Part shown: piece by piece, positions 30,690 to 64,000 of the stretch | Numbering within the stretch: the first letter of the stretch is position 1 | How the letters are laid out: every line of letters starts with the position of its first letter | Assembly (NCBI GenBank): GCA_002205965.3 | Contig: NADL03000114.1 | Coordinates: 186,001 to 250,000, forward strand | From: Kappaphycus alvarezii | Lineage: Eukaryota > Rhodophyta > Florideophyceae > Gigartinales > Solieriaceae | Direction of reading: 5' to 3' | Length of the DNA stretch: 64,000 nucleotides | Program-made: the position numbers and the translations under genes | Notes under the pieces: generated by a model | Told to the model about the DNA's origin: nothing | The model's input: only the letters and a program-made list of their open reading frames with translations | Database searches by the model: none

Positions 30690-30802
30690 TTGCATATGCA
30701 ACTGTCATACAACCGTGATAGCGTGACCTGCTGAGAGTTGTGAATCAGAGCCAATTTGAAGTCCCTTATCATATTCACATATCATTTTGCGATCAATCCA
30801 CC
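30690..30802 (-). repeat. Left (A1-type) repeat of the old DIRS element
   Basis: Its reverse complement begins ggtggattgatcg and continues gtgaatatgataa, parallel to the first 150 bp of the young element at 42,606. Divergence is high, but the order of words is conserved. Confidence 0.7.
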
Positions 30803-41631: not shown

Positions 41632-42605
41632 TTTCGAAATCCGGGAGCTCGGCAGTGCAGTGAGATGAGCAGAATGTTTGCTTTGGGTGTGCGGTGCAGT
41701 TGGGGAAAAGAACGGTGGGGGTAAAATGGCTGAGTCGCTGTGTCATTTATAGTACACTCAGGTGATGTCTCGCTCTACACGATTACATGTCATCGTCTAG
41801 CTTTTCCAATGCAACTCAAGCAGCTGCAGTGCGTACATGATCTGAGGACCAGGCCATCTGGTCCCTCCTGCTTAATCTGGTTTTCGGTTATGGTACGGGG
41901 ACGAAACGGAAACTTCCATCTTCTTTTCCACAACTGTAAGATTCTCATACTTCCATGAGCATCCACAGTGAGTTGGGTTAGTAAAGTACCAGCAGATCAC
42001 TTGAGGTTCGTACCTGTCGCATCGCAAACCATTGCGCCACGGTTTTCCGTTCCAAGTGACAATGCATTGGTGGTGGCCGTTCAATTCCTCCACACTAGTC
42101 CTTACACTCTTGTAAGAGGGCCATCTGAGGACTCGCTTTTTGATTCGTTAGCTTATATTAGTGTGTATGACATGAATCCGTAAGAATCTAAAGAACTACT
42201 AATTGAGGACCCCTGGTCCTCTCCTAGCGTTTACGAGTGAGGCTGTTTACAGAGCTTGAACTTACTCGACCTCTTGCCTCCGATGGAACTGCTGTCCCCC
42301 TTTCAGTTGTTGGGCAAGATCATCTGTTTCTGTTGTCTACTTTTTGTTGCCCACATCACCTGAACCGGTAAATGCACGCCAGGGACACCGATTGTCTGTG
42401 TCCTTTGCCGTTACCCGTCCTTCCCTACTGTACCAGGACAGAGGATGCCCGGGGAGCAAAAGAGCAATATTCGTGGGACACAGTGTTGTGTAATGCACGG
42501 CGGACCTTGACGGGTACGGCAGAGCCTGCGGAGTAATTTCGACGCCAGCCACGGATCTCTGATATCCTCGAGTACTTTTTCCCAGGGTGAAGGTTTGGGT
42601 GCTTT
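41632..42605. other. Upstream region of the Spondin_N gene and R-repeat start
   Basis: No other gene is recognised. The first few hundred bases upstream of the ATG should hold the promoter, but no clear TATA box stands out. The last 20 bases (42,585-42,605) are the start of an R-family repeat cut by the DIRS insertion. Confidence 0.5.
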
Positions 42606-42877
42606 GGTGGAATGATTGGAAAATTATGGGTGAATATGATAGGGGGGCTTCGACGTGGCTGTGATCCACAACTGGAAGCAAGTCACGCTGTCACGTCTGC
42701 ATCTCGGTTGCATTTGCATCCGCCGGACTGTAAGCCACTCGAGATAAGGCCACGTTGGCAGCGTACCGTTGCTCAAGGACTTGATGTGCGATCAGAACCC
42801 GTCGGACAGGTCTATATAACCGACAACTTGGAAACCTTTGGCACAACTTCTGGTCCCTCAAGTCGTCGCTTGTTCTC
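42606..42877 (+). repeat. A1, left terminal repeat of the DIRS element
   Basis: This 272-bp block is repeated, apparently without differences, at 46,826-47,097. It contains a TATA box (42,811-42,820) and so probably the promoter. Confidence 0.93.
42811..42820 (+). promoter_or_regulatory. TATA box in repeat A1
   Basis: tctatataac lies 125 bp upstream of the probable Gag ATG at 42,945 (context taccatg). The identical motif in A2 is at 47,031-47,040. Confidence 0.6.
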
Positions 42878-42944
42878 ATCCTTCGAACCAGCCTCAGACG
42901 AATCACCGTCTAGGCCGACATTCACACAACACAACACCCTTACC

Positions 42945-45734
42945 ATGTCTAATGCTGAGTCCTCCTCTGCTGCATCAACCGGTTCCCGTATCGACGCCCT
43001 CGAAAACAAGTTTTCAACCCTCGAGAATCAACTCTCTGAAGTCGTCAATTTGCTCAAGGGTGGTGCCGGTCCTTCCGCCCAAGCCGCTCCCGCCGCTGGG
43101 CCCTCCGCTGCCGCAGATCGCCGTCGGATCCCGCCGATCAAGCCACGGCCGCGCCGAGGCCTTCAAGGTTGGGCAACTGCAGTTTTCACTGCCGCCCCAA
43201 GTGCCGAGCAGGTGGGCGAAACCTTCGCCACTCGGCGAGCTTACGCCGCTACCGGTAAGCTCAACAAGTTCGAGAAACCTCTTACCGTCGCTCCCTTTCC
43301 CTCAAAAAGGTTCATTCCGGAACTGAAGGCCTGTTTGGACGCATCAAGACAGCCGATCAGAGGGACGGGTGGGAAGCTGAAGTCCTCTGGAACGTGGGCA
43401 ACAACTGTGAAAACGCCCTCGCCAGTGCCCATCGAGTCACCGAGGCCCTGGCTGCGAAGGACGTCCAAGCCGCTACCGAGGCCTTCGCAGTTCTACATCA
43501 CTTTCTTGAAGCTTCCTATTCCAGGGTATTGGAACGAGTTGATATCTTCACCGACTCCTTGGAATCCGGTAAATCAGAGGCTATTCTTCTCCAGAAGTAC
43601 CTCAGAGAAGACGACTTCCCCTACGCATCCGATTTGTATCGAACTACCAAACACAAGTTCGCCGAGCTCCGTTCGCAAGCTTACGCAAAGGAGTTCAACA
43701 AGCAACAAGCCGGGAATCGCCGCCCTCCGAAGGGACCTGGAAGGAACCAGCCTGGTCCGGCCGAAAAGCCTAGTCGCAAGTAAGCGGTCATCTCCGCCGT
43801 CGTTTTGTCCTATGTCTCAAGTCCTGTGGCGCAACACCCAACGCGCCGGCTCCCTTTTGGTCCAGACCCTTCAGGCCTCCGAATTCCTTCTTCGGGCACT
43901 CCGTTTTGGAGTTTACGAGCGCCCGGTGAAAACATCCCTTTCAGACACTCAATTCCGCCTCTCTCAAATCCCTATCGATCCGTCCGACCGGGAATTCTTC
44001 GACGACGCAATCAAAGACGCTCTTCACCGTCGAACGTACGAAGAAATCTCAGCTGCCGAAGCTCTTCGTCTGCACAAGGATGGCTACCCGATTTCCAACG
44101 CATTCGTCGCAGTTACCGGGGAAAAACAGCGGTTGGTTGTAAACCTTTCCCGCCAGTCTACATTATTTCGAGACATGCCTGTCAAAATGGAAACCCTGGA
44201 AGGGTTCGCTCTGGATCTCAAGCGTTCAGACTACCTTTTCTCGTTCGATATCGCGAAGGGCTACCACCATTTTCGATTGCATCCCGATATTCGCAACTGG
44301 TTTATTTTCAAGGTGGACAACCGATATTTCCGCTGTATCGCCCTCCCTTTTGGATGGAAGCTTTCGCCGGCATATTTTATCAAGCTCATGAGACCCTTCG
44401 TCCGCTTCGTCCGAAATCGCCTTCGTCTGCGTATGCACCCGTACATGGACGACTTTCTGGTCGCGGTTCGCCGACGCTCTCGTCTTCACAAGGCTCGTGT
44501 GCAAATCGATCGTCTCTTGAAGGCTTGCGGACTACTTCGCAAGGAAGACAAGGGAAACTGGGCCGGAACGCAGTGTATCGAACATCTCGGTTTTACTATC
44601 GATACCACTCGTATGATGTTTGGAATAACCGCAAAGCGAATGGAAAAACTCAAGGGTATCTCGCAACAGTTGCTCCGCCAAGCACGTCGGAACCGCCGCC
44701 TGGTCGACGTCCAACTGTTACGCCACTTCGCAGGAGTGGCAATATCATGCTCCCTGGCCATGCCACTCGCACGGTTCTACACCCGATCCATCTACGATTC
44801 GCTCAAGCTGAACACATCCAACTCAGGGAAACGGGTGAAGCTGCTTCACTCAGCGATTCGGGACCTCAAACACTGGCGCGATCTAGCTCACAGTCCGCCA
44901 GAGAGGCCCGTGTCGACCCCATCCCCTACGTTGGCGCTCCACTCGGACGCATCGACGACCATTGGTCAAGGGGGAACCTTGGGCTCCAATTTGCAACCAG
45001 GAACCCAAGGAACGTGGGAAGCTCGTGGCTTATGGGATCCTCTTCTTCGCGTCAAGCCAATAACATTCTTGGAGCTCCGCGCCGTGACGGACAACATCCG
45101 GTCGTTCGCCAACATGCTCAAGTCAGGGACTCACCTCAGAGTATGGGAGGACAACCAAGCAGTCGTGGCAATTCTCAACGCTATGACAACCAAGTCCCGA
45201 CCACTCATGCAAGAACTCCGCGTGTTACACCGCTTGTTACAGAAGCTGGGAATCTCCATAGAAGCACGTTACCTCCCGTCAGCAGTCAATCGTTTCGCAG
45301 ATCGGTTGTCACGACTACACACCCTCGACGACTGGAGAATCAATCAGGAGACACTCCAACCGCTGCTCGAATCATACCATCCGACTATCGACCGGTTCGC
45401 CGACAGCAGCAACAAGGTCTGCGCCAAGTTCAACAGCGAATTCGCGTGTCCTGGCTCCCTGGGGATCAACGCGCTACAACAAGACTGGCGTTCAGAGCTC
45501 AATTTTTGGAATCCTCCTCTCAAGTTGATTCCACTCGTCGTCAACAAGATCTGCCACGAACAGGCAAAGGGAATACTGGTCACGCCTTGCTGGCCCGCTC
45601 AGCAATGGTACACGAAATTGCTCCGTTGGCTCGTCCGCACGTGTTTCGCCGCAGAAGATCTTTACCTCCCGCCAATTTGGGCCCCGCAAACAATGCCCAC
45701 TCCTCCGTGGAAATTGGCCGTCTGGAAAATCTAG
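42945..45734 (+). CDS. DIRS Gag, reverse transcriptase and RNase H region (fossil)
   Basis: The Gag-like N-terminus has a short coiled-coil segment (RIDALENKFSTLENQLSEVV) and an Ala/Pro-rich linker. Reverse transcriptase follows with FSFDIAKGYHHFRLHP (about 44,240), the LPFGWKLSPAYF segment (about 44,345) and a YMDDF active-site box (about 44,441), typical of DIRS elements. RNase H shows LHSDAS (about 44,940), WEDNQAV (about 45,145) and YLPSAVNRFADRLS (about 45,270). These would copy the element RNA into DNA. The downstream recombinase frame overlaps this region for about 1.9 kb, an arrangement known in DIRS elements. The Gag portion shows a break; RT and RNase H look whole. Confidence 0.9.
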   Translation: MSNAESSSAASTGSRIDALENKFSTLENQLSEVVNLLKGGAGPSAQAAPAAGPSAAADRRRIPPIKPRPRRGLQGWATAVFTAAPSAEQVGETFATRRAYAATGKLNKFEKPLTVAPFPSKRFIPELKACLDASRQPIRGTGGKLKSSGTWATTVKTPSPVPIESPRPWLRRTSKPLPRPSQFYITFLKLPIPGYWNELISSPTPWNPVNQRLFFSRSTSEKTTSPTHPICIELPNTSSPSSVRKLTQRSSTSNKPGIAALRRDLEGTSLVRPKSLVASKRSSPPSFCPMSQVLWRNTQRAGSLLVQTLQASEFLLRALRFGVYERPVKTSLSDTQFRLSQIPIDPSDREFFDDAIKDALHRRTYEEISAAEALRLHKDGYPISNAFVAVTGEKQRLVVNLSRQSTLFRDMPVKMETLEGFALDLKRSDYLFSFDIAKGYHHFRLHPDIRNWFIFKVDNRYFRCIALPFGWKLSPAYFIKLMRPFVRFVRNRLRLRMHPYMDDFLVAVRRRSRLHKARVQIDRLLKACGLLRKEDKGNWAGTQCIEHLGFTIDTTRMMFGITAKRMEKLKGISQQLLRQARRNRRLVDVQLLRHFAGVAISCSLAMPLARFYTRSIYDSLKLNTSNSGKRVKLLHSAIRDLKHWRDLAHSPPERPVSTPSPTLALHSDASTTIGQGGTLGSNLQPGTQGTWEARGLWDPLLRVKPITFLELRAVTDNIRSFANMLKSGTHLRVWEDNQAVVAILNAMTTKSRPLMQELRVLHRLLQKLGISIEARYLPSAVNRFADRLSRLHTLDDWRINQETLQPLLESYHPTIDRFADSSNKVCAKFNSEFACPGSLGINALQQDWRSELNFWNPPLKLIPLVVNKICHEQAKGILVTPCWPAQQWYTKLLRWLVRTCFAAEDLYLPPIWAPQTMPTPPWKLAVWKI

Positions 45735-46766
45735 CAGAAGAAGCTCGTACTCTACCTCTTGCTGTTACGCTACAACAGTCGGTGCTTACAGTGGCCGGGG
45801 CTGGAGCGACTAATGGGGGTACCACGATCGCTCGTCTGATGCCGAAAGCGAGAGCACCGAACACGTGGAGATCAAATGAAATTTTGTGGAAGAAATGGCT
45901 GGAATTCTGCTCTCAAGATGGTATTGACCCGCTCTCTGGAAATGAAGGTGCTGTCCTTCGGTATCTGGGTTGGCTCTTCGAGGAAAACAAGATTAGTGCG
46001 GGTTCAGTACGCAACTACCTCTCGGCTGTCACTACGGCGCATACTCGTATTGGGCGGTCTCTGGCACTCACACCACTCATTCAATTGGCTGTGGATGCCT
46101 TTCAACAAGGGGACAGGGACCGAAAGTTGCTCTCAGACCCGCTTACAGAGCGGCGTGCTCTGCCAAGCTCAGTTGCTCGTCGAATCTTCGCTCTCGCACT
46201 CGCGTCTCCGGACACTGATCTCGAATTTCTACGCAACGCCTGTGCCGTACTCGTCAGCTACATTTTCTTTGAACGTGGCGAAGCTGGGGTGTCTCTGTTG
46301 CTGACCAACATCACTGTCACTCCGGATTCAATCAACATCGCCATCGCACTACGCAAGAATCGTAACCGGGTTGCTCATACTCTTGCTTACCGCCGAAATC
46401 CTCGCTTCGATACCAGCGTGATCGACCTGGTCTGTCGTTATGATACTCTACGCCGCTCGAACCGATCCGGGAGCAAGTACTATTGGGCTTTACCTGGGAC
46501 TCGTCTTTCTACGAGCGCAAGAACCATTACTCTTTGGCTACAGTCTTGTCTGCTCGTGCTCAAGTCACACCTCCGCCTCAAGTCTCTTGGTCTTCGCACT
46601 CGCTGCGCATGGGTGCCGCATCAGAATGTGCAGCGATTGGGGTTCAGGAATATCGGATATTGATATGGGGGGATTGGTCGGCTGGACGCACATTCCGCGA
46701 GTCTTATCTGGATGCTAGGGTGATGCAATGTGATGATTCGTTCATTTTCTTCGGTCACTTGCTGTG
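45735..46766 (+). CDS. DIRS tyrosine recombinase region (fossil)
   Basis: The product would insert the element as a closed circle without target duplication. Motifs: WKKWLEFCSQDGIDPLSGN (about 45,890, N-terminal SAM-like domain), GSVRNYLSAVTTAHTRIG (about 46,000), FFERGEAGVSLL (about 46,265), RTITLWLQSCL (about 46,520), then HSLRMGAAS and GVQEYRILIWGDWSAGRTF with a following Tyr (about 46,600-46,700). The open frame of this phase begins far upstream, at 43,805, inside the RT frame, but the recognisable domain starts near 45,800. About one break is suspected near the end. Confidence 0.88.
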
Positions 46767-46805
46767 ACCTCACTCTCGTTATCACGTACCTCCGGTACAT
46801 TTGGT

Positions 46806-47097
46806 TTTCTCTATTGTTTTAATTCGGTGGAATGATTGGAAAATTATGGGTGAATATGATAGGGGGGCTTCGACGTGGCTGTGATCCACAACTGGAAGCA
46901 AGTCACGCTGTCACGTCTGCATCTCGGTTGCATTTGCATCCGCCGGACTGTAAGCCACTCGAGATAAGGCCACGTTGGCAGCGTACCGTTGCTCAAGGAC
47001 TTGATGTGCGATCAGAACCCGTCGGACAGGTCTATATAACCGACAACTTGGAAACCTTTGGCACAACTTCTGGTCCCTCAAGTCGTCGCTTGTTCTC
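46806..47097 (+). repeat. B1-A2 junction of the DIRS element
   Basis: B1 (46,806-46,825) equals the last 20 bp of the element (47,850-47,869), and A2 equals its first 272 bp. The internal order B1 then A2 is therefore the sequence expected if the two element ends were joined in a circle. This is the hallmark of split direct repeats. Confidence 0.92.
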
Positions 47098-47849
47098 CCG
47101 CCTCCCTCCCTCCACTCATCCTTCATGGCCCAATCACAAGCCGTCTTTTGTTCTTGATTTATGTTATGCTTTATTTATGATTCGTTATTTATGGAATTCT
47201 GATTACGCAAACGCAGCAACTGGTGGAAGTTTGATTTGGTTCTGGTCAGAGGATCATCACGCATAATGGTCACGGGCGTATGACCGCGCTACTCTCCTTA
47301 CAACTCTTGCGACGCGAACACACCAAATCTAAAGAGTTTACCCAAGCGTACGCATGATGGAACGAATGGAACCGGACAAGGATCTCAGCGTCTGGGGAGA
47401 CACGCCGATCAACTCATCCAATTCCACCAATCCATTACTCCCGGTCATATGTCTCGGTCCACAGCTCACCTGCCCTCTCGCTGGAACATCTTCTCCCCTA
47501 CGTGTGCCTCCCCAGGCCGGCCATTGCTGGCAGCGTACGTGCACGCAAGACAAGTAAGGTTGGCACCAAACGGAAGCTGTCACACTACACCCCTTTGAGG
47601 TACCATCCCCGGAAGAAGCGCCCCGCGCCCATAGCCGCTGTACAGCAGCATCCGGAGATTCGAGTGATCAAGCATTTTTAACCCTGCCTTCACCAGTTCT
47701 GTCTCGAGCAAACGTTCAACACGAAGGTTCAAATCAATCCCAACTACTGGAGCAAGTAAGCTGCATAAGTTATCCCTGTTTGCTGTAATGCGTACTTATT
47801 TAGTTATCCCTGTTGCTGTTAGCTATTTGCTTTGATAAAGTTTTATGTG
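47098..47849 (+). other. Spacer between A2 and B2 of the DIRS element
   Basis: This is a 752-bp stretch unique in the window. Short frames are open, including a basic one ending near 47,680 (LRYHPRKKRPAPIAAVQQH) and one at 47,354-47,557. No domain is recognised. It may carry the 3' untranslated region or a degenerate accessory frame. Confidence 0.5.
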
Positions 47850-47869
47850 TTTCTCTATTGTTTTAATTC

Positions 47870-48215
47870 ACTTCTGAAAGATATACTCGATCTATGTTAA
47901 ATTACCTGACACAACCGCAATCAACTCAAAAGAGCATGTCAACACAGTAACGGGGGAGGAATTACACTCCGTAGCACGTCAATAACCACAACCGACCATT
48001 TTTCGAATGGCTCAACTGGTTGGTGTCGTTTGGAATCCATTCAAATCAAACCGCAATCAAGATTGATCTGGGGGAAAAGTTTAGGTAGTTTAATATTTGG
48101 AAAGTAGTGTGATTTCCTGAAGTGAGGCCAGATGTTCCTTTGAGACTTAAGCCAAGAGGGGGTAAGATTACACACTAAGGGGTCACCAGCGTGCTCAGAT
48201 CACTTTGGAAACTCC
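47870..48215 (+). repeat. R-family repeat and end of duplication copy I
   Basis: This continues the repeat that starts at 42,585 and is split by the DIRS element. It matches 63,716-64,000 almost exactly (duplication) and 39,990-40,330 with divergence (R family). Blocks include gatatactcgatcta, caatcaactcaaaag and acagtaacgggggagg. Confidence 0.8.
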
Positions 48216-49089
48216 GTCTAGATTCCCCTCCGCTAGAAGTGTCAGCCGACAAAGAAAACTACCCCATCATTCCCCCCGTTGGAAAAGGCCTGGAGGCCAT
48301 GGGATTGATCAGCTTTCAGAGCGGCGTTCAAATTGAGTTTTCCGGTCAGGCTTCTCTTGGTATAGTATCAAAGCCAGAGGTCTGTTGCAATTGCGGCTGT
48401 TGAAGCTTATCAGAACCTGGAGCATCTCCGTCCCAGTTCAAACGTTACCACGTCGTACTTTTCTGCTGGTTGGAATTGAAGTGCCGAGCATGGAGTGGGG
48501 GAAGGTTTGGGTGCTTTGTTCTTGGAAGAAATGTTCGAATCTATCGAGCATGGAGTGCTGCTTTAAATTACATTTTACCAGCACCACTAACGATCGCATT
48601 CCGTGCACGGTGTCCTGGGGCTTTCTACTCAGCCCTCTTGCCTTACCGGAGATCTCATATCTTCAATAGACGGGCCATGTGAATTAGCGCGTGTAGAATC
48701 GAAACTTGTATGTTGTCTACTCTCTGGACAACCTACTAAAGTATAGACAATCTACAACTTGGATCGAAAGCGTTTAGCGGGTAATCTATTTGGAGACGGG
48801 CCTTCCCTTCTCAATAGACTGCCCGTTCAGAGGACTCGAACCTGCACTCCACTAGCACTAAATTAACCCAAGTCCCTCCTATGACATATCGGCTTGTGGG
48901 ATGTCATCGAATAGACCTTTGAGGTTCTTTGTGGATGGAGATTGTACAAAAATTGAGTGACGGTTGGAGGGTGTTGCTGCACGTAGGTTTCCAATGTATC
49001 TTGAATCAGTTCTGCCAGGAACGGTAGAAATTCGTCATTGGTCCTCGCCTGATTGCAAAAGCATCCGTAATCGAGGACAAATATACCGT
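48216..49089. other. No gene recognised; one R-family fragment
   Basis: An R fragment lies at about 48,495-48,560 (ggggaaggtttgggtgcttt, then cttggaag). The rest has only short frames without motifs. The LINE 3' end follows at 49,090. Confidence 0.45.
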
Positions 49090-51800
49090 GGTGGTAGATC
49101 TTTATTTGTCATACAATGTCGCACAGAGGCGTGCGGAGGGTATTTATAAATTAACTACGGATGCGGGCGGCGGGTAGAAACTTGTCGCGCCTGCATTATT
49201 TGGAGACTAAATGCAAAACCGGTAACGAAGTCGCGGAGCTCCTGTTGAGGGGAGGAACTGCGACGGGAAGCAGCGAAGGAAGCAAGGCGGCGGAAAAAGC
49301 CTTACCGTCGTCGCCCAAGGCGCCATAGATATCAATCCCGACGGGGGAGAGGAGGATATCGTTTCGGTTGCAGTAAGTGCCGTAATGACGATGTTTCTCG
49401 CGCTCTGCGAGTGTTGCGGCAGCGCCGGCAGTAACCGTACTTGGCGAAATGTGGCGGCATGCGGAGGGTGGGCAACAGTAACGTCGACGGCTATATCGGT
49501 ACTGTGAAGCCCGTATGCAGCGGGTATGTAAATATCCATTCGTAGCACGGGGGACTCCGAATGCCCAGATGAGTCGGGAACCTGGTGGAGGAGCGGATGT
49601 TCGACGAGGGCGACGATCCCAACTTCCTTGCAGTAGCGGGCAAGAACGTTGCGGAGGATGTGGTGACGACGAGTCATTCCGTCTTCGTATTTGCAGGTCA
49701 ACGCGTGTTGACCACTTGGATCTAAGACGGGTGCGATGTCGGCCGAGCGGCGGGAGCAGACCGGACAGCGAGTAGATCCAGGGAATAGCGCGATGCCGAG
49801 ACGTAGAGCCAGAGCGACTTTCCAGGCGGAAGAGGACATGTACGTACCGCGGTGGGGTGAGGAAGCGAAGAGAAAACAGTCGATGCGGAGGATGTGCGCA
49901 CGGAGAGGAGCCGTGCTCGGTCGTGGGCTGCCGCGGACGAGAACAAGCTATCGGACTTCGATAGCATGAGTTCAGTTGTGATCGCAGACTGGAGCCTTTC
50001 GCCGGGGACCGGCGATGAACAACGCTCGAAAAGAGCCGTAGCTGTAAGCGACGAAGACAGCTGCGGGTGGCGGGAGGATAAGAGCGAGATGGCAGACCGA
50101 GGGATCTCTTCCAAGTGGCGGTCATGGGAAAGGGTAAGCAGGTCGGAGATAAGTCGAAAAGAATCAATTACAGATGCTGCGTATGCAGCCTCGGTAATGT
50201 CTGAAGTTTGCAGGAGACCTAGACCGCCCATTGAGAAGGGGAGAGAGGCTTGGAGCCAGGCTCGCTCTGGACAGGGCAGCTGCAATTGGTGGAACGCTTC
50301 CCTCTGCTTCTGATCGAAGCTAGCGGCGAGAACCGCAGATTGAGTGGAGGGAAGCGTACGCAGCAAGTGCATGACCTTGGAGGCGTTCGCGCAGAAGCGG
50401 TGTAAGTGGAAAGCCAATTGAGCATCATCCAAGTCTCGAAGGGATTGGAAGATGCGGTCAACTTCGTTTTGGCGGCCTGCGAAAAATTGGGAAACAAAAG
50501 CGTCCGAGCCAATCGGGGATCCCAGCACGATAAAACCAGGGGGGGTTGAAAAGGGGCAAGGAAGTGCCAAAGGGGAGTGGGAAGGGGAGAAGCCGTAAAC
50601 TTGGGTCTTGGCAAGGTTGAGCTGGAACCCTAGTGGACCTCCTTCAAGCTGGATGAAACGGATGGCAGCAGCGGCTTGGGATCGAGGAAGAACAATGTTA
50701 CCGTCATCTGCGTACCAAGCGTTCAGGGCAGGTGAGAACTTCTCCTGTAACGATAGCAAGAGCGGATGGAGAGCCAGGGCAAAGAGCAAGGGACCGAGGG
50801 GATCACCTTGCTGAGTGCCCTCTGAACTACGGACATAGTAGGGTCCGAAAGCAAGCTCTGTAGGAGCATCGTAACAAGAGTGTACCCACCGTGCGAGGCC
50901 TGGGGCATGTGTCTGTACGGTTCCAGAATGCGCTGGCGGGAGATGCAATTGAAAGCGTTGCGAGCATCTATCTGGACCAAGACGTGATCGTGGAACTCGG
51001 GTCTCTGGGAAAGACGACGCACAGAATGAATTATTGCATCGATGCCGTTCTTGACGCCTACCCCGACCTGATGGGGCAGAAGGTAAGAGCGGATGGCGGG
51101 GGCGGCTTTGTGTGCCGCGAGCCTAGAAATTAGGCGCCGGTAGAGAAGCCCAACCGCAATCGGACGGATTCCCCGTTTGGCTTCGGCAGGGCAATAAGAC
51201 GGCCTCCGCAGAAATACGGGCGGCACGCGGCCGGCAGATCGCTGTTCAAACAGAGGTTGAGGAACTTTGTCAGGGCATGTAGGCAATCCCTCGCGGGCGG
51301 GCGTGACCCACCTGCCGGGCGAAGCAGCATTCGCAGGAACACTGGGGATAGACCATCGGCCCAGGAGCGGTTGAAGGATCCAGGCTGTGAATGGCACGGC
51401 GGACATCCGAGACCGAGAACTTTAGCGCCGGAGGCAAACCGTGGGGGCATGGGAGTGATTGGGATGGGGGGCGGGGATGAAGTGAAGCCAAGGATTGAAA
51501 GGTAGCTTCGCTGGGGGAGAGTGGGGGATCGACTTGGAGAAGGGCTGCTGTGGCCCGGGAAGGGCTACCCCGGGAGAGGAAGCGACGGCATCTGCGAAGG
51601 CCGTGTCAGGGCGGGCGAGGGTGGGAGGGGATGGAATCGGAGAGGGGGTGGCGGAGATGAACAACGAGGAGGCCTCATCGATTGTGATGGCGAGAGGTTC
51701 TTCATAAACGAACTCAACGTACCATACCTCCAGAATCTTACGTACACGCAACCGTGCAATGTCGGTTTTCAACGACAGAGTAGTAAAGCCCATGCGCTTT
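49090..51800 (-). mobile_element. LINE lineage C, nearly full length
   Basis: This is a minus-strand non-LTR retrotransposon. Its 3' end (plus-strand ggtggtagatc at 49,090) is shared exactly with the insertions at 62,738 and 24,560, so the terminus gatctaccacc is a property of the family, and no poly-A tail follows it. The 5' end is uncertain; coding similarity reaches about 51,690 and the open frame 51,793. It lies just downstream of duplication copy I. Confidence 0.85.
49196..51793 (-). pseudogene. LINE lineage C pol: RT plus restriction-like endonuclease
   Basis: The N-terminal part (about 51,270-51,793) is Pro/Ser-rich, ending in FSVSDVRRAIHSLDPSTAPG, a typical pre-RT segment. RT follows: VRPIAVGLLYRRL type (about 51,150), VQIDARNAFNCIS (about 50,970), SEGTQQGDPLGPLLFALALH (about 50,800) and NAWYADDGNIVLP (about 50,700). 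The frame 49,722-50,948 stays open for 408 codons. A Cys/His cluster CPVC...GQHALTC with RRHH (about 49,690-49,760) is followed by an endonuclease-like part: RMDIYIPAAYG, TDIAVDVTVAHP, then EKHRHYG and GIDIYGALG. Frameshifts near 51,430, 51,130, 50,830, 49,840 and 49,450 break it. It is the least damaged LINE here. Confidence 0.87.
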
Positions 51801-52138
51801 TGAGTTAGCAGAGGACCTCAGCTGAAAGATCAATTTAACTATTCTCTTCATGCGATGGAAAACACGAGAAATTCTTTTTACACACTTCCCTATCCGCACT
51901 ACCATGCTATCTTTCATCATACCGCAGGTAAACGACTGCAAGCTTTGTTCGCTTTGGAACAGTATAAGAATGTATGGCTCTCGACTCGCATCGCCGAAAG
52001 CTAATCCCAGTCATCCTCAGCTTGCCTCAACGGAACTCCTTCAACATTGAACTTTACATTGTTCTGCTTATCTGAAGTGTTTAAAGTCCGTTCTTTGTTC
52101 TCAACTGATTCCACCCTTTCTCCTACTGCTTTCTTACC
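51801..52138. other. Short intergenic stretch, probable promoter of the cupin gene
   Basis: No open frame with a motif. T/C-rich sequence precedes the cupin start (about 52,075-52,138), and the ATG context is ttaccatgg. Confidence 0.45.
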
Positions 52139-52646
52139 ATGGAACGTCGCAACATTATCACAGCATTCTTTCTGATATCTTTATTCGGGATGTCCCACGC
52201 ATCGATTCCAGTTTCGGGCTGCAGACTGCGGCAGGAGCACGAGCTGCTCTCCGTGACCGAGATTTCCGCATTCGATTCAGCGAGGGTGCTCAGGTCAACA
52301 CCCCTAACTTCCGTGTCAGCATCGCAGACTTGACCAATTTTCCTGCCCTCGGAGCGCAAGACGTGCAGTCAACCCTTGTTCGAGTCACTCTCAAAGCGGG
52401 CCAGCCCTTCGTCACTCACCACCACCCTAGGGCTACCGAAACCTTTAACGCATTGCAGGGCGTCTTCCAGAATTCATTCCGTTTTGAAGGGCTAGGGGAC
52501 GTCCGAAATTTAGCAATGTCATCAGGGCCGGCGAGTCCACCATATTCCCCCAAGGCCTTGTTCACTCCACCGTCTGTATCAGCCGCACCGACTGTGTCTT
52601 CTTGTCCGTCCTCAACTCGGCTGACCCTGGTACCGTTCCGGCATGA
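52139..52646 (+). pseudogene. Germin-like cupin, secreted, with two frame breaks
   Basis: A signal-peptide-like start, MERRNIITAFFLISLFGMSH, opens at 52,139 in a strong context (accatgg). The cupin part reads FRVSIADLTNFPALGAQDV, then motif 1, G-QPFVT-HHH-PRAT-E-TFNALQ-G (about 52,397-52,460), which has all metal-binding His and Glu residues. Motif 2 follows, G-ESTIF-PQG-LV-H-STV-C (about 52,521-52,570), with Cys where Asn is usual. The stop is at 52,644-52,646. The three parts lie in three frames, so at least two frameshifts (between about 52,200 and 52,260, and near 52,490) break the gene, unless assembly errors are involved. Germin-like proteins are secreted beta-barrel metalloproteins; the substrate here is unknown. 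Confidence 0.75.
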
Positions 52647-55600
52647 AACAGTCGCCTTTCCCTCATAGAAATGGCTCTGCCGAAGAAATCTGGCATATTG
52701 CGGGTGACGTGGAACGGAAGGCGGCACATGAAGGCTGGCATCAGGCGGCAAAATTTTGTCTCCACCGGTGTAGCACAGTGGACCCATATCATTCCACTAC
52801 CAATTGTACAAATTATGACTGCCTTCCTTTTATCGACCGGTTTCGAGCTGGCTGGCCCTTCCTACCACGAGGTTCATCCATGTTTGCCAAGCATGACTAG
52901 GAAGGCCACTGGAGTTTGACAATTCGCTTGATTCTGTTTCCCAGTTCACTAATGCGCCCCTTAACTTGCAGTCTTATTAGTGGGGTGATTCACGTTCCAG
53001 CTTCAAGTACCAGGAGTAAAGGAATGCACGCAAAAAATAGGATAGAGCCTCCATCTCTTGTTCAGCTGTTTACAGGCGTTTCAACAGTAGCAGCCGTGAG
53101 CACACCTTACGGGAAGTGTGATGCGAGCTTTTTTCGTGCTACGGGAAAAGCTGTAGAATCCGATAGGGATTCTATCATGAAAATGCGGAGTAAAAGTCAT
53201 CACCAAGTTTAACTGTGTGTATCGGTTTTACCAGCTGGAGCTGTTCAATAAATATATGGCAGAATGTGCGCTGCCTTTGAAGGCCTGAAGGTAGCATTTT
53301 AGGGAGCGTAGTTCCTTCCCCATTACGGTGTCGGTATACCCTTTTGAGTTGATTGTGGTGGTCTGGAAAACCATGGGATAGATCGGATATACCTTCCAAG
53401 AGTAAAACACCCAACGTTCCCCCCTGTAAACTGGACGATAGGGTTTCAGAGGCTAACGGTAAACTAGTTTACGAGCTTTTCCATCAGCGCAAGCATATGA
53501 AAAAGGTCAGTGGGTGGTCATATCGAGATGGAATCTGTCCACTTGTCCTGCCTGATTTTTAGAGGGGTTCGTCCGAGTAGGTCGCTGCACGGCGCTGCTT
53601 CCATCCGTAAAGCTGGAACGAAGTTGCCTGGAGTAGGGCTCGATACAATGATGAATAGAAATCCCATTTTAATCGTAGCTGATCGATGGGGACTGGTCGA
53701 TAGCCTGGAACTGGAAAATGATTTCCAATATCTCAGCACTATTCGTACCGAATTGCAAGGAACAACTGCTCCCAGAATAATTCAGGTAACCAGTGTAATA
53801 ATTTTTGTAACCAGACTTCACACAGTAATAATTACTGAATATTTTCCGGATAAGAATTGGTCAAGATGAGATTTGCAACTCAAAATGGGTTCCAGCCAAT
53901 CCATACATCTCAATAAAGAAACCCCCTTTTTTTCCTATTATTGGATCACCTGGTAACTGTAATCATTACAGTCTGTGGAACATTGCAACCCGAGCGAATG
54001 ATCTAAAAACTGGTTCACATTTAATAGACTACTGACAGGCCAGAGTCAATTAGATAAGAATATCCTTCGATGATTTGCAATCAGAAAATTTGTCGGTTGT
54101 GATTAGGAATAGTTTCAGAATTTAGCATCACGTTAGAAAACCGGGACATAGATTGGATTATTTGCTCAATTTCACAATTTGGTTGTTTAAAGCTACGCTG
54201 TATCAAGTTCGTGCTGAGAATTGAGCGAATGTTTCGAAGATGAACAAATGACCGGCAATTATAAACACGCCATTGGAATCCGTAGGGCACAAAGTGTACA
54301 CGTTGTGAGTAGGTGGTATATTTCCCATCTGTATTGCAGCGATCCTCTCTTCAAGAATGAGCGACGGCGGAGGAAACCTCTCAAAGATAATGGAAATGTA
54401 AGGCAATAAGTCTCTTTGTAGGCCTTAGAATGCTTAAATGCGCGAGAGAACCGGTGCATACTTGGGTGTGGTAAATTAAGTTTACAACTGGCATATTAGA
54501 CTTGTTAATTTTCTTTTGGTCTCGTATGTTTGGCGTGTTGGAGCTGCTTACAGTTTCATACGTCAAGAAAAAGTACGGTACCGCAATAGTACCCCGTCTA
54601 AACCTATCCTCATTCAAAGCGATGCGCGGGAAAGTACAAGAGTTCTGTTCTCCTGTGCCAATGAATCGCCACATAACTTTTCCCCAACATTCACTAAACA
54701 ATGAGGTAAAAAGATGGAATAACGATGGGATCATCCGTAAAATTTTAAGCAAATCCTTATTCCATTACAGAAGAAGCCCATACTATTTACGACCCAAAGG
54801 TTTTCTTTCTTATACGTAATGGCCCCTGCGCTTACCCGCACGTCTATCATGGACACGCCACCAAATCAAACTAAAACGAACGGATGTCAAATAGGTACGA
54901 TTGCTATCCTATGCTTAACTGGTGGCGTAAATGGGGGCTTTTTTCGCGATATTCTATAGCAACCTACCCCACATACGCCTGGAATATACCGATAGAGTGC
55001 TAGAGTCTTATCTTACCAAGTGTAAATGTTCAATAGTTTCAGTGTATTATATTTGATGTCGCTAAATCTTTTGACCTCTTTTCTTTGAATATGAAAATGC
55101 AATCAAATGCTTGAATGGAACAACATACATCTTCTTGAAGCAGAACAAACGACAACATCATTTCAAGCGTCACAGCCCAAACGTAGATATTCCGGGTACC
55201 AGCTCATCAAACTCAGTTCCAAAAACAATGCAAACAAGATTGATTCATAATTCTGACATTAACTGCAAAAGGTCCTCGAAAATGGTATTTGAGTACTCCC
55301 AAGCTTAAGACTCTCGCAAACTGGTGTTCATATTCTTGACCTGTACAGTAAAATTTTCGGTCGGCAAAGAAATCTTTGAAACGTTGGCACGAAACAAATT
55401 CGTCGAAAGCAGTACAGGGCCGTCTTATCATGCGTTGTGCTATGAAATAAGCGTAATGGTTGATTTAATTCATCGTCCATCGGAAAGAAGCCATGCGTTA
55501 TAGTTTTTGCTCGTGGCTTCGTACTCAATATAGGCGCAATCAAGATAAAATATGCATTAAGGGCTTCGATGAGCGTCACTTGAGTCGTTTATATGAATTC

Positions 55601-59310: not shown

Positions 59311-59819
59311 TCGTATTTCCAAGCAACCCTACTCTACGCAGGTTGATATATTGAGCTACCCAGAACTTTTTCCTGGTTTCCAAACGGTATTAAACAATGC
59401 TGCATTTGGATCGGCCTCCGGGCAAAAGTAGACCGACAGGTACCACGAGCATTCTGTCGAGGTACAAAGAGCGGAGAACAGCTGACACAAATGCGGCATG
59501 ATTAGGAGTGGAGAAGGCCGAACAGAAGTGACTTTATGAATCAAAGCTAACCTAGCCGATCAACAGCCTGTAGTCCGGATATGTACAGCCCCCACTCTGC
59601 CATCGACAATTTTTAGTAAAACACATTGATTTGGCAGCGACAAGGGGGAGGTTTGCAAGAGTACAAAATGTCGGTAGTAAGATAATTCAGAAGGTATTAT
59701 GATATTTCCGAAAGTAGGGGTAAGATTAATGTGTTTAGCATGAATGTGGTGGGCGGGAAGAAGAAGTAAGCGAAAGGAATGGAACGTGAGAGAAACCGAA
59801 TGCAGTTGTAATACAAAAA

Positions 59820-59925
59820 TGGTCCTCCCTCATTTAATACAGGAAATGGTCCTCCCTTCACGTAATACAGAAATGGTCCTCCCTTCACGTAAGACAGGAA
59901 ATGGTCCTCCCCTCTTGTAATCCAA
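59820..59925. repeat. Four 27-bp tandem repeats in the LTR-like unit
   Basis: Units contain tggtcctccc followed by ttcacgtaa-like sequence, with spacings of 27, 27 and 28. Such repeats near the start of an LTR are often transcription-factor sites, but that role is inference. Confidence 0.8.
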
Positions 59926-60281
59926 CAACCTACAACGATCCGCCCCTAACTTCTCCAACCGTCATTTCCAAATTTACTTCCATTTATCTAGATATTTTTA
60001 TACTGTATTAACCCTCTGAATCGACCCCGAATCAAGTCCCTTTTCCCTTTAGCTTACCTCCTCCTCCAAATTCGCCTTTTTGAGAAGAAGGGCGCAAATG
60101 CACTATTGCAAAATCCCTTGCAGATTTATTTTACCTATTCCTAATCTATAGAACCTGCCCCGGGAGCCTATTTAAACCCCTTTATTCTAAGTTCCAAATG
60201 CCCCCGATTTTCTCAACCCTCTCCCCCCCCCACACACCCAAAACACCCCACATTGCCTCCTGTTCCCCAACGTCTATCACA

Positions 60282-60546
60282 ATGAGCAACCTTCGCCCCT
60301 CTGTCCCTATTTCCAAAAACCGCCCTTCCCGTTCCATCAATGGCCTTCGTCTCGCCGCCTACGGGCCAACCCATGCCGACGACTACATCCGGCGGCAAAC
60401 AAAGAAGCAAATCATCGAGTTCGTGCGCCGCCTCTTCATAGAAGAAGAAGCGAGGGAGGTAAGTCCGGGAGAGGCTGAGAAGGTCGAGGAGGAGAGCGGG
60501 GAGTCCTTCGAGGAATGGTTAGCCCCTGAGCTAGTGTACGAGGCTC

Positions 60547-60577
<31 letters not shown>

Positions 60578-60719
60578 GGAGGATGAGGATGAGGAAGAAG
60601 AGGAAGAGGAGGGGAGGATGAGGAGGATGAGGAGGAAGAGGATGAGGAGGAGGAGGAGGATGAGGAGGATGAGGGAGCAGGGGGCATGGAAAGTGTTGGA
60701 CTGGTGGGGCCTGGAATAG
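60282..60719 (+). CDS. Acidic ORF inside the LTR-like unit, function unknown
   Basis: The ATG context is cacaatgag. The first 85 residues are not low-complexity and include IRRQTKKQIIEFVRRLFIEE, which should form a charged amphipathic helix. They are followed by a run of Glu/Asp codons derived from a GAG/GAT microsatellite (about 60,553-60,616), after which this frame becomes Arg/Met-rich. A second, overlapping frame at 60,686-60,898 is also acidic (for example DSMDILEELFGSDLENGK), reminiscent of transcriptional activation domains. No family is recognised. Confidence 0.45.
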
Positions 60720-61024
60720 AGAGTATGGATCAAGTTGTGCCCACGATGGAACCGGATGGAGATATCTTTAGTAGTCTAGATATCTCCCAGGGGGAAATAG
60801 AGAGGTGTGAGCCATTCGCAGATATATGTGGGGACTGCTTGGACAGCATGGATATTTTAGAGGAGTTGTTTGGATCTGATTTAGAGAATGGGAAATAAGA
60901 GGACCAAATTAATTGTTAGTTTCTTAAGTATCTTTTGCTTAGAGTATATTGTCCACAATAAGTATTTTTATGCATTTCTTGGTATCTTCTGTAGTTTTGT
61001 TCGGACTTTAGGGGTAGCCAAAAG

Positions 61025-61034
61025 TCTATATAAG
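61025..61034 (+). promoter_or_regulatory. TATA box in LTR-like unit II
   Basis: tctatataag lies at the same relative place as in the 39.2-kb unit, about 310 bp before the right end, in the conserved half. Confidence 0.55.
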
Positions 61035-61452
61035 CTGAGTAAACTGCTTCCTCATGGAGAGGTCAAGCAAGTTGGCAGACAACTTCAAGCCAAGTCCCGA
61101 GTAGTAGGAAGTTGAGAGTCAACTTCAGACCCAAGAAAACTTTTCCTTAGGCTAGTCGCAGAGCGTCGGTGGTAGACCCTGCCCCTTTTATACTTGCTTG
61201 TAGCTTCCTCAACTCTCTTCTATATACACTCCCTTTTATTCGTTCAACAATACCACGGCAGCACTTTTGTCGCTCGCAACACCTCCTTCTCAGGGTAATT
61301 GGTTCTGAGGATCTCCTCCCCCGCCGATTTACCCATATCAGCAGTATTAGAAGTGGCTAAGCTACCTAAGGCTGGAGCGGAGAAGCGAGAAATGCGGCTT
61401 GAGACCCTCGACACTTCCCTGGACTTCCGCAGGACGGCGGTTCACCGACCTC

Positions 61453-62137
61453 CTACAGTTTTCGGATCTCGAATCTTCCCACTACACGCCCCTCAAAGCG
61501 GTCAGTCTCGTCCTCCACCAGCGGTGCAATGTTCTTCTGTGGTACGGTCGGTAAGTCAAGGCTTAAATCCAGTGGCGGGGTGAATTCGCGGCCATCGTCA
61601 ACTCCTGCATCGTATGCAATCAGCGTCCCCTTTGGCGACGAACGAAACGGCCCGCCTCAACGTCGAAAAGATTGCGGTTGTTGATCTGCACGATCCAGTC
61701 TGGAGAGGGTGCAATCATTCCGAGCATTGTGACAAACGGGTGTTCACAATCGACATCAACCTCGAGGGAGGTGGACTGTCCAGGCATTGTCACGGCATCG
61801 GCACCCAAGACGGAGAGAACCCCGCGTCCCTCTGACCTCAAGCGACGAGCGAAATTGATGAAGCGGGTGTTGACTCCGGTTTCGGCCAGGATCTCGACAG
61901 GCCGGTTGGCGAAGCCGCGGATAGTGAAGAAGGACACGCGGTTTGAGTGCGACACAGCAGCCAGAGGGGAAAACACAAGGCCGGTGCCCGGGATCAAACT
62001 GCGAAAGCGATTGGGGTGAGGAAGTTGGTAAATGTGATCTTATAGGTTGCGTTGCCAGAGCAATTCGGGAACGGCCTCTCAAGTGCTGAGACGGCAATAG
62101 TGAACACAGAGAGGATGAGGAGGCGTGAGAATAACAT
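61453..62137 (-). pseudogene. Spondin_N-domain protein gene, copy II (two frame breaks)
   Basis: This is the same gene as 40,946-41,631. Here the junction between signal peptide and domain is in frame (SALERPFPNCSGNATYKITF), but one base is missing in a G-run near 62,014 and one in a C-run near 61,629, so the domain is cut in three. The diagnostic MLGMIAPSPDWIV remains. The 3' side now ends 110 bp from the LTR-like insertion at 61,340. Because the two copies are broken at different places, the shared ancestor was probably intact. Confidence 0.8.
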
Positions 62138-62737
62138 TTTCGAAATCCGGGAGCTCGGCAGTGCAGTGAGATGAGCAGAATGTTTGCTTTGGGTGTGCGG
62201 TGCAGTTGGGGAAAAGAACGGTGGGGGTAAAATTGGCTGAGTCGCTGTGTCATTTATAGTACACTCAGGTGATGTCTCGCTCTACACGATTACATGGCAT
62301 CGTCTAGCTTTTCCAATGCAACTCAAGCAGCTGCAGTGCGTACATGAGATCTGAGGACCAGGCCATCTGGTCCCTCCTGCTTAATCTGGTTTTCGGTTAT
62401 GGTACGGGGACGAAACGGAAACTTCCATCTTCTTTTCCACAACTGTAAGATTCTCATACTTCCATGAGCATCCACAGTGAGTTGGGTTAGTAAAGTATGA
62501 CCAGCAGATCACTTGAGGTTCGTACCTGTCGCATCGCAAACCATTGCGCCACGGTTTTCCGTTCCAAGTGACAATGCATTGGTGGTGGCCGTTCAATTCC
62601 TCCCACACTAGTCCTTACACTCTTGTAAGAGGGCCATCTGAGGACTCGCTTTTTGATTCGTTAGCTTATATTAGTGTGTATGACATGAATCCGTAAGAAT
62701 CTAAGAACTACTAATTGAGGACCCCTGGTCCTCTCCT

Positions 62738-63321
62738 GGTGGTAGATCTTTATTTGTCATACAATGTCGCACAGAGGCGTGCGGAGGGTATTTATAAATT
62801 AACTACGGATGCGGGCGGCGGGTAGAAACTTGTCGCGCCTGCATTATTTGGAGACTAAATGCAAAACGGGTAACGAAGTCGCGGAGCTCCTGATGAGGGG
62901 AGGAACCGCGACGAGAAGCAGCGAAGGAAGCAAGGCGGCGGAAAAAAGCCTTACCGTCGTCGCCCAAGGCGCCATAGATATCAATCCCGACGGGGGAGAG
63001 GAGGATATCGTTTCGGTTGCAGTAAGTGCCGTAATGACGATGTTTCTCGCGCTCTGCGAGTGTCGCGGCGGCGCCGGCAGTAACCGTACTTGGCGAAATG
63101 TGGCGGCGTGCGGAGGGGTGGGCAACAGTAACGTCGACGGCTATATCGGTACTGTGAAGCCCGTATGCAGCGGGTATGTAGATATCCATTCGTAGCACGG
63201 GGGACTCCGAATGCCCAGATGAGTCGGGAACCTGGTGGAGGAGCGGATGTTCGACGAGGGCGACGATCCCAACTTCCTTGCAGTAGCGGGCAAGAACGTT
63301 GCGGAGGATGTGGTGACGACA
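62738..63321 (-). mobile_element. LINE lineage C 3' fragment (copy 3) with target duplication
   Basis: A 584-bp insertion with a 10-bp target duplication, gtcctctcct, at 62,728-62,737 and 63,322-63,331; copy I has the empty site at about 42,215. It starts at the family 3' terminus (ggtggtagatc, minus strand) and contains only the endonuclease end of the protein (DIYIPAAYG, VDVTVAHP). It is strongly 5'-truncated and very similar to 49,090-49,670. Confidence 0.92.
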
Positions 63322-63694
63322 GTCCTCTCCTAGCGTTTACGAGTGAGGCTGTTAACAGAGGCTTGAACTTACTCGACCTCTTGCCTCCGATTGGAACGTG
63401 CTGTCCCCCTTTCAGTTGTTGGGCAAGATCATCTGTTTTCTGTTGTCTACTTTTTGTTGCCCACATCACCTGAACCGGTAAATGCACGCCAGGGACACCG
63501 ATTGTCTGTGTCCTTTGCCGTTACCCGTCCTTCCCTACTGTACCAGGACAGAGGATGCCCGGGGAGCAAAAGAGCAATATTCGTGGGACACAGTGTTGTG
63601 TAATGCACGGCGGACCTTGACGGGTACGGCAGAGCCTGCGGAGTAATTTCGACGCCAGCCACGGATCTCTGATATCCTCGAGTACTTTTTCCCA

Positions 63695-64000
63695 GGGTGA
63701 AGGTTTGGGTGCTTTACTTCTGAAAGATATACTCGATCTATGTTAAATTACCTGACACAACCGCAATCAACTCAAAAGAGCATGTCAACACAGTAACGGG
63801 GGAGGAATTACACTCCGTAGCACGTCAATAACCACAACCGACCATTTTTCGAATGGCTCAACTGGTTGGTGTCGTTTGGAATCCATTCAAATCAAACCGC
63901 AATCAAGATTGATCTGGGGGAAAAGTTTAGGTAGTTTAATATTTGGAAAGTAGTGTGATTTCCTGAAGTGAGGCCAGATGTTCCTTTGAGACTTAAGCCA
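63695..64000 (+). repeat. R-family repeat with the uninterrupted DIRS target site
   Basis: gggtgcttt joins acttctgaaag at 63,715/63,716 without the 5.26-kb element found at 42,606. Continues to the window end. Confidence 0.85.

Follow-up and report, generated by a model that had tools for sequence, protein, structure and literature searches.

The 64,000-nucleotide stretch of Kappaphycus alvarezii DNA analysed here (the window; positions 186,001 to 250,000 of contig NADL03000114.1, hereafter C114) carries at 42606-47869 what is very probably a full-length, recently inserted retrotransposon of the order DIRS, with split direct repeats, whose circular form would have been inserted by its own putative tyrosine recombinase (YR) at a target of the form T3-N8-A3. 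The element has exact ends, lacks a target duplication and interrupts one unit of an 11-kb tandem repeat, and its internal B1-A2 junction equals its two ends joined. A single target rule applies across the family, TTT^AC followed by an A-rich word at +9 to +11 (^ marks the junction). The part of these data most worth specialist attention is the exact, family-wide record of where strands were exchanged.

Ends and layout of the element

The features of the element and its target, in window coordinates, are as follows.

42606-47869, plus strand: whole DIRS-order retrotransposon, PAT-type by structure, 5,264 bp
42603-42605, plus strand: left half of the target, TTT, after which the A1 end begins
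42606-42877, plus strand: A1, left direct repeat, identical to A2 at 272/272 positions
42945-43783, plus strand: gag-like open reading frame (ORF) region, frame interrupted in this copy
43812-45734, plus strand: open 640-aa ORF, reverse transcriptase (RT)/RNase H-like/methyltransferase-like
45605-46767, plus strand: putative tyrosine recombinase region with its frame broken at about 46.55 kb, HxxR...W...Y at the C-terminal end
46806-46825, plus strand: B1 (at least 20 bp), abutting A2; B1-A2 is the predicted circle junction B2-A1
46826-47097, plus strand: A2, identical to A1 at 272/272 positions
47098-47869, plus strand: B2 segment, 772 bp, the final 20 bp of which recur as B1
47870-47880, plus strand: right half of the target, the 8-bp spacer ACTTCTGA and then AAG at +9 to +11 (AAA in the family rule)
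63704-63726, plus strand: empty, uninterrupted target of the window's second repeat unit, with the junction at 63715/63716

The overall order is therefore A1, gag, RT/RNase H/methyltransferase, YR, B1A2 and B2. When the flanks of the element (42216-42605 and 47870-48154) are joined and aligned with 63322-64000, 674/675 bases are identical with four 1-bp gaps, and the join ..GGGTGCTTT^ACTTCTG.. (GCTTT^ACTTC) is exact, with zero bases duplicated or lost. This flank-to-empty-site alignment confirms the edges, the 5,264-bp length and the absence of a target duplication proposed in the initial annotation, and the short direct repeat at the junctions that it named as contrary evidence was looked for and is not present. 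The same annotation correctly recognized the DIRS type and the identity of the two 272-bp repeats. Its description of the element as near-whole needs amending in that the ends are whole, the defects being the interrupted gag and recombinase frames.

The last 20 bp of the element (47850-47869) recur as B1 immediately before A2, and B1-A2 therefore corresponds to the product of joining both ends, reading ..TTTTAATTC^GGTGGAAT.. exactly as the joined element ends do. This 17-base junction is unchanged in 23/25 of the copies read that carry both A repeats.

The empty site in an 11-kb tandem repeat

Each flank was searched separately against the assembly from which the window comes (884 contigs totalling 336 Mb; the window is C114:186001-250000). 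Among the matches listed, both flanks reach the junction at 27 places, 26 of them uninterrupted and the sole interrupted one being the present element (C114:228606-233869); matches of about 77% identity, which do not extend to the junction on both sides, were left out of this count. The empty places lie on eight contigs, namely C881 (five), C466 (five), C883 (four), C142 (three), C357 (two), C874 (two), C353 (one) and C114, the last with 249715 and three on the other strand. Units are mostly spaced at 11.1-11.4 kb, with additional spacings of 14.3 and 21.4 kb on C881 and 21.4 kb on C357, and form identity groups of 98-99%, 93-95% and 90-92%. Thirteen of the 26 empty places were read base by base; all 13 keep GCTTTACTTCTGAAAG and have the target word GCTTTACTTC unchanged. 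The locus at 63.7 kb thus retains the uninterrupted target, as originally annotated, and is one unit of a tandem repeat as opposed to a single duplicate.

Since the flanks are contiguous at 26 places, including diverged units, the empty state is ancestral and the event is an insertion, not an excision. It is extremely unlikely that the 63.7-kb site arose by excision or by collapse of the assembly, the other contrary finding anticipated in the initial annotation. The second unit does lie near the end of its contig (C114 ends at 254962), and a C142 unit with an identical 587-bp insert implies that C142 and C114 overlap or are allelic, but the contiguous places fall on eight contigs and in three identity groups, some being only 90-95% identical, and the 13 that were read share GCTTTACTTC; we rejected this explanation. 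We also consider it rather improbable that the assembly has placed the second allele head to tail as the local second copy, which would then not be a true tandem neighbour. Such a misplacement would fit the near-identical flanks, the presence/absence differences in transposable elements between the two window copies, the end of the contig inside the second copy and the 1-bp gaps, which hint at uncorrected long-read indels. Against it, other contigs hold two to five units, mostly 11.1-11.4 kb apart.

The 587-bp insert is common to the third C142 unit and the second C114 unit, and that C142 unit and C114:249715 may be the same physical unit, counted as two of the 26. Neither the DIRS element nor the 2.6-kb insert of 49089-51697 is present in the C142 unit preceding the third. 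C142 possibly represents the second allele, and the insertion would then be heterozygous.

The tandem repeat itself is a macrosatellite occupying 38653-64000 of the window and present on C881, C883, C874, C466, C142, C357 and C353. Within the window it contains a Spondin_N ORF on the minus strand (61623-62039, E 8.5e-15); a cupin match at 52051-52665 is weak (E 0.006). Other inserts varying between repeat units are found at 49089-51697, 59806-61341 (1.5 kb) and 62737-63324; the first and last of these share sequence (98%) and appear by eye to be one non-LTR retrotransposon family.

A family-wide target rule

The initial annotation proposed a genome search for other copies and a scoring of the words around their junctions; both were carried out, and many copies and the rule T3-N8-A3 emerged. 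The scored set comprises 38 left-flank and 38 right-flank rows from separate insertions. Rows duplicating an insertion that was already represented (L016, L034, L044/L066, L047 and L055) were dropped, as were left ends that are truncated, absent or diverged (L018, L031, L032, L050, L052 and L056) and L061/L063, which are internal B1-A2 junctions and not left ends. Right values are lacking for L021 (contig end) and for L030, L031 and L032 (truncated). The right value of L020 comes from a repeated empty flank, so that 37/38 right rows are true right junctions; L094 was added to reach 38 true right junctions and stands outside the P values. L023, which has a 12-bp deletion at the left and a C-to-T change at the right end, was placed by hand, and the L037 row represents a single array unit. 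By their 95-96% B2 identity, seven of the right rows (L072-L078) belong to a subfamily, the gag-pol comparison for which took in C515, C625, C710 and C530.

The left flank has T at -1 in 38/38 rows and at -2 and -3 in 35/38 each, and the right flank begins with A in 37/38 rows and has C at +2 in 25/38. Further into the right flank, A is found at +9 in 26/38, at +10 in 29/38 and at +11 in 21/38 rows (binomial P of 2e-7, 6e-10 and 3e-4, respectively, versus the far flanks), and at least two of the three A residues are present in 27/38 right rows versus 3-10 at six control offsets. The best palindrome centre lies 4 bp right of the junction (0.355 versus mostly 0.2-0.3), with a second peak of 0.337 located 1 bp left of it, both being raw scores over 21 paired rows. 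Subfamily right rows follow the same pattern (A at +1 in 7/7, at least two of AAA in 4/7), and one left end fits also. L052 is probably a further empty site, for insertion L026. What is new here is one target rule for this family, TTT^A...AAA, without homology to the circle junction.

Coding content

The gag frame interrupted in this copy is open over 281 aa in some other copies, and the 281-aa gag of copy L033 contains one Cys and, by eye, no CCHC zinc finger. The 640-aa ORF matches PF00078 (RVT_1) with an E value of 1.9e-19 and has acidic motifs that we take, by eye, to be RNase H-like; a Pfam RNase H match was not obtained for this ORF. Residues 504-587 match the N6-adenine methyltransferase models Pfam Dam (E 2.6e-4) and TIGR01712 (E 1.5e-4), both below the curated cut-offs. 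An open recombinase frame is likewise present in other copies, one of which ends HSLRMGA..GDW..ESYL. The assignment as a putative tyrosine recombinase is made at the level of motifs and is strengthened by the position of the frame and by the insertion signature.

Compared with each other 99% copy, the window copy has 10-37 gaps and 11-30 mismatches. As gaps are roughly as many as mismatches, uncorrected long-read indels are likely and the frame breaks are perhaps artefacts; the gag and recombinase interruptions are thus possibly assembly indels. No relatives of the RT protein were confirmed in viral_contigs, and Rfam gave no match on the window at gathering score.

Position of strand exchange

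On either side of the exchange point the circle junction (TTC^GG) carries bases different from those of the target (TTT^AC), and each insertion therefore records the position at which strands were switched. Under the DIRS1 model the three shared bases would hide this point, whereas here both sides are informative. T is the last flank base in all 38 left rows, with A1 following from base 1 (one G is missing in L033, and L023 has a 12-bp deletion just inside), and 0/38 left flanks end in C. At the right junctions the last base of B2 is C, or T in L023, and the target's own bases come next. In the rows read, A1 keeps the circle spacer GGTGGAAT, the right junction keeps the target spacer, and the strand switch lies at the same (left) edge of the 8-base spacer. 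A two-strand exchange over an 8-bp stagger, followed by replication, would be expected to give a second class as well, in which GATTGG would be preceded by the target spacer and AATTC followed by GGTGGAAT; this class was found in 0/38 right junctions read (37 plus L094). Target and circle spacers match at 83/304 positions (27%), compared with a mean of 71.6 in shuffles, 6% of which attain the observed value, and strong spacer homology is therefore not required.

These observations can be placed in a model in which the RNA would be copied into cDNA and the internal B1A2 would act as a guide for joining the element ends into a circle. The encoded tyrosine recombinase would then insert the circle at T3-N8-A3, needing no homology in the 8-bp spacer, with the exchange inherited at the left spacer edge. 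Because the second class predicted by two-strand exchange is missing from all 38 right junctions, the data suggest, by analogy with integrons, a one-strand exchange finished by replication at a Tn1549-like target. Single-stranded or nicked cDNA could serve as the donor. That DIRS-type retrotransposons exchange a single strand at one edge of the non-homologous 8 bp within T3-N8-A3, with replication finishing as for integron cassettes, is a proposal that we advance tentatively, as possible and somewhat short of probable. If it is true, the published model of recombination between a circle and a matching 3-bp word would be wrong for at least this family.

One-strand exchange has bacterial precedents in integron cassettes (PMC2727003) and in strand-biased elements (PMC9345347). 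Textbook tyrosine recombinases are nonetheless described as exchanging both strands, their sites having a middle segment of 6-8 bp (PMC5871717, PMC3212892), and both strands could have been exchanged here too if repair or replication always retained the same strand, leaving one class visible. We regard this as a serious alternative that is, on balance, somewhat improbable: an 8-bp mismatched heteroduplex would need resolving, as such a process supposes, but without bias about half of the right junctions should belong to the other class, as against the 0/38 recorded. The many young copies and the 26 empty repeat places make this family a good natural record for distinguishing one-strand from two-strand exchange.

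Several observations weigh against the main reading as a whole, that of a DIRS-order element inserted by its own recombinase at T3-N8-A3 with exchange at one edge. At the left end of L056 other bases replace the first 7-8 of A1 and the match resumes at the far spacer edge; the second exchange class would have this appearance on that side, but those bases are not preceded by TTT^A, and L094, the right end of the same copy (C818), is of the usual class. The target rule has exceptions in the right end L070, which starts CC and is the sole departure from A at +1, and in 6/38 left words that are not TTT (TAT three times, CTT, ATT and GTT). Inverted arms in the circle junction are not significant (any-spacing P 0.48, over a subset of spacings); a candidate pair of recombinase arms that was plausible by eye had P 0.06 at its own spacing and was rejected. 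To the sub-threshold methyltransferase matches is added a recombinase that has no informative Pfam, NCBIfam or PHROGs match and no significant PDB match, the Cre match on HxxR..W being weak (E about 0.5) and an antibody chain scoring better (E 0.049). Finally, no circle or transcript was observed.

Copies and age

The whole-element search gave 31 matches. Among the best 40 matches scored in each case, and including the window copy, the 5' internal region has 24 at 98% identity or more (23 others) and the 3' 772 bp have 32 at 99% or more, some matches being one insertion on two contigs. The 99%-identity copies indicate that the family was active recently, while the gag and recombinase frames of this copy are interrupted. 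Near-identical sister copies and an almost unchanged flank suggest that the present insertion is recent. The initial annotation had reached the same view from the identity of A1 and A2, which is a weak clock by itself because the two repeats, unlike long terminal repeats (LTRs), are not necessarily copied from one template. A1 and A2 differ by 0-1 mismatches in 99% copies, with the exception of the internally deleted pair L033/L034 (5 and 1), and by 0-25 mismatches in copies of about 92% identity.

Some insertions (L014/L016 and L033/L034, with L044 similar) are represented on two or three contigs with near-identical flanks, and two alleles, or recent duplications, of L014/L016 and L033/L034 are probably present in the assembly. 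L021 (C618:67013-75175) comprises two elements head to tail with one common A repeat (A1-internal-B1-A2-internal..), up to the contig end, and may be a dimer or an integration into a resident B1A2 junction. Solo A-B2 remnants of 1,044 bp, comparable to solo LTRs, occur at L037 (C757:115201-119000) in a tandemly amplified unit of approximately 1.77 kb; among the best 40 matches scored there are at least eight on C757 and at least three on C756, the latter by position only. In L020 (C14:349510-356013) the element stops 6 bp past A2; beyond it lie 65 bp and a second copy of the element's left flank (98.7%), which continues as an empty site, TTTT^ACTG.

A second, older DIRS element lies on the minus strand at about 26.6-30.8 kb of the window. 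Its A1 starts at 30802, and its right end was not found. The main tblastn segments of its gag, RT and YR are 38-51% identical to those of the first element, its A1 and A2 are 70% identical over 111 nt, and its best other copy is 84% identical (C466); it is too decayed to inform the exchange phase. L092 and L093 (C515), together with C625, C710 and C530, form the subfamily with B2 95-96% identical to the present element. The gag-pol of this subfamily matches the second window family at 67-69%, and the subfamily is possibly mosaic.

Comparison with known systems

By structure the element is a real, whole and recent PAT-type member of the order DIRS. It has the features of the order in its RT with RNase H (PF00078, with RNase H motifs by eye) and in the absence of a target-site duplication; for a further feature, a tyrosine recombinase in place of a DDE integrase, there are the HxxR..W..Y motif and the weak Cre match. 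The inverted terminal repeats and internal complementary region of DIRS1-like elements were considered and rejected, there being no inverted pairs of 20 nt or more within 42000-48500. PAT elements are defined by split direct repeats and a methyltransferase, and the Toc3-like ones among them by a gag without zinc finger and a recombinase that is not inverted; PAT elements lacking the zinc finger are reported only outside Metazoa, with Toc3 in algae (PMC4157794). The present element shares with them the split direct repeats (A1..B1A2..B2), the YR on the plus strand with RT, the internal repeats downstream of YR and the gag without zinc finger, the methyltransferase match after RT/RNase H being weak here. 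It differs in its red algal host, a placement with which the look of an rRNA stretch at L038 agrees, and in T3-N8-A3 and one-sided exchange, neither of which is described in the available part of that account. A report of either for DIRS elements was likewise not found in the accessible portions of the open-licence literature.

It is also conceivable, although unlikely, that the element is Ngaro-type, with split direct repeats and no true methyltransferase. The order A1-[ORFs]-B1A2B2 is common to Ngaro, as in the Cafeteria Ngaro, which leaves solo AB remnants too (PMC8547959), and the methyltransferase matches here fall short of their cut-offs; SGNH hydrolase occurs in some Ngaro. Ngaro elements are described as being without a methyltransferase domain (PMC4157794), however, and the same C-terminal segment of the 640-aa ORF was matched as N6-adenine methyltransferase by two libraries.

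According to the model for DIRS1, recombination takes place between the 3-bp junction of the circle and a genomic word identical to it, without target duplication, and 23/28 annotated elements begin and end with NTT (PMC3266345). Target duplication is similarly absent here and the left word TTT fits NTT, but the repeats are direct and not inverted, and an identical word in circle and target was rejected, as the circle 3-mer is TTC versus a target word ending in T in 38/38 left rows. A parallel for the target may be found in the Y-transposases of Tn916 and Tn1549, the latter with the target TTTT-n6-AAAA and a non-homologous crossover region (PMC5871717). By analogy, these share with the present family a T-rich/A-rich target and a non-homologous crossover, and differ in being bacterial DNA elements with a crossover of 5-7 nt in contrast to the 8-bp spacer found here.

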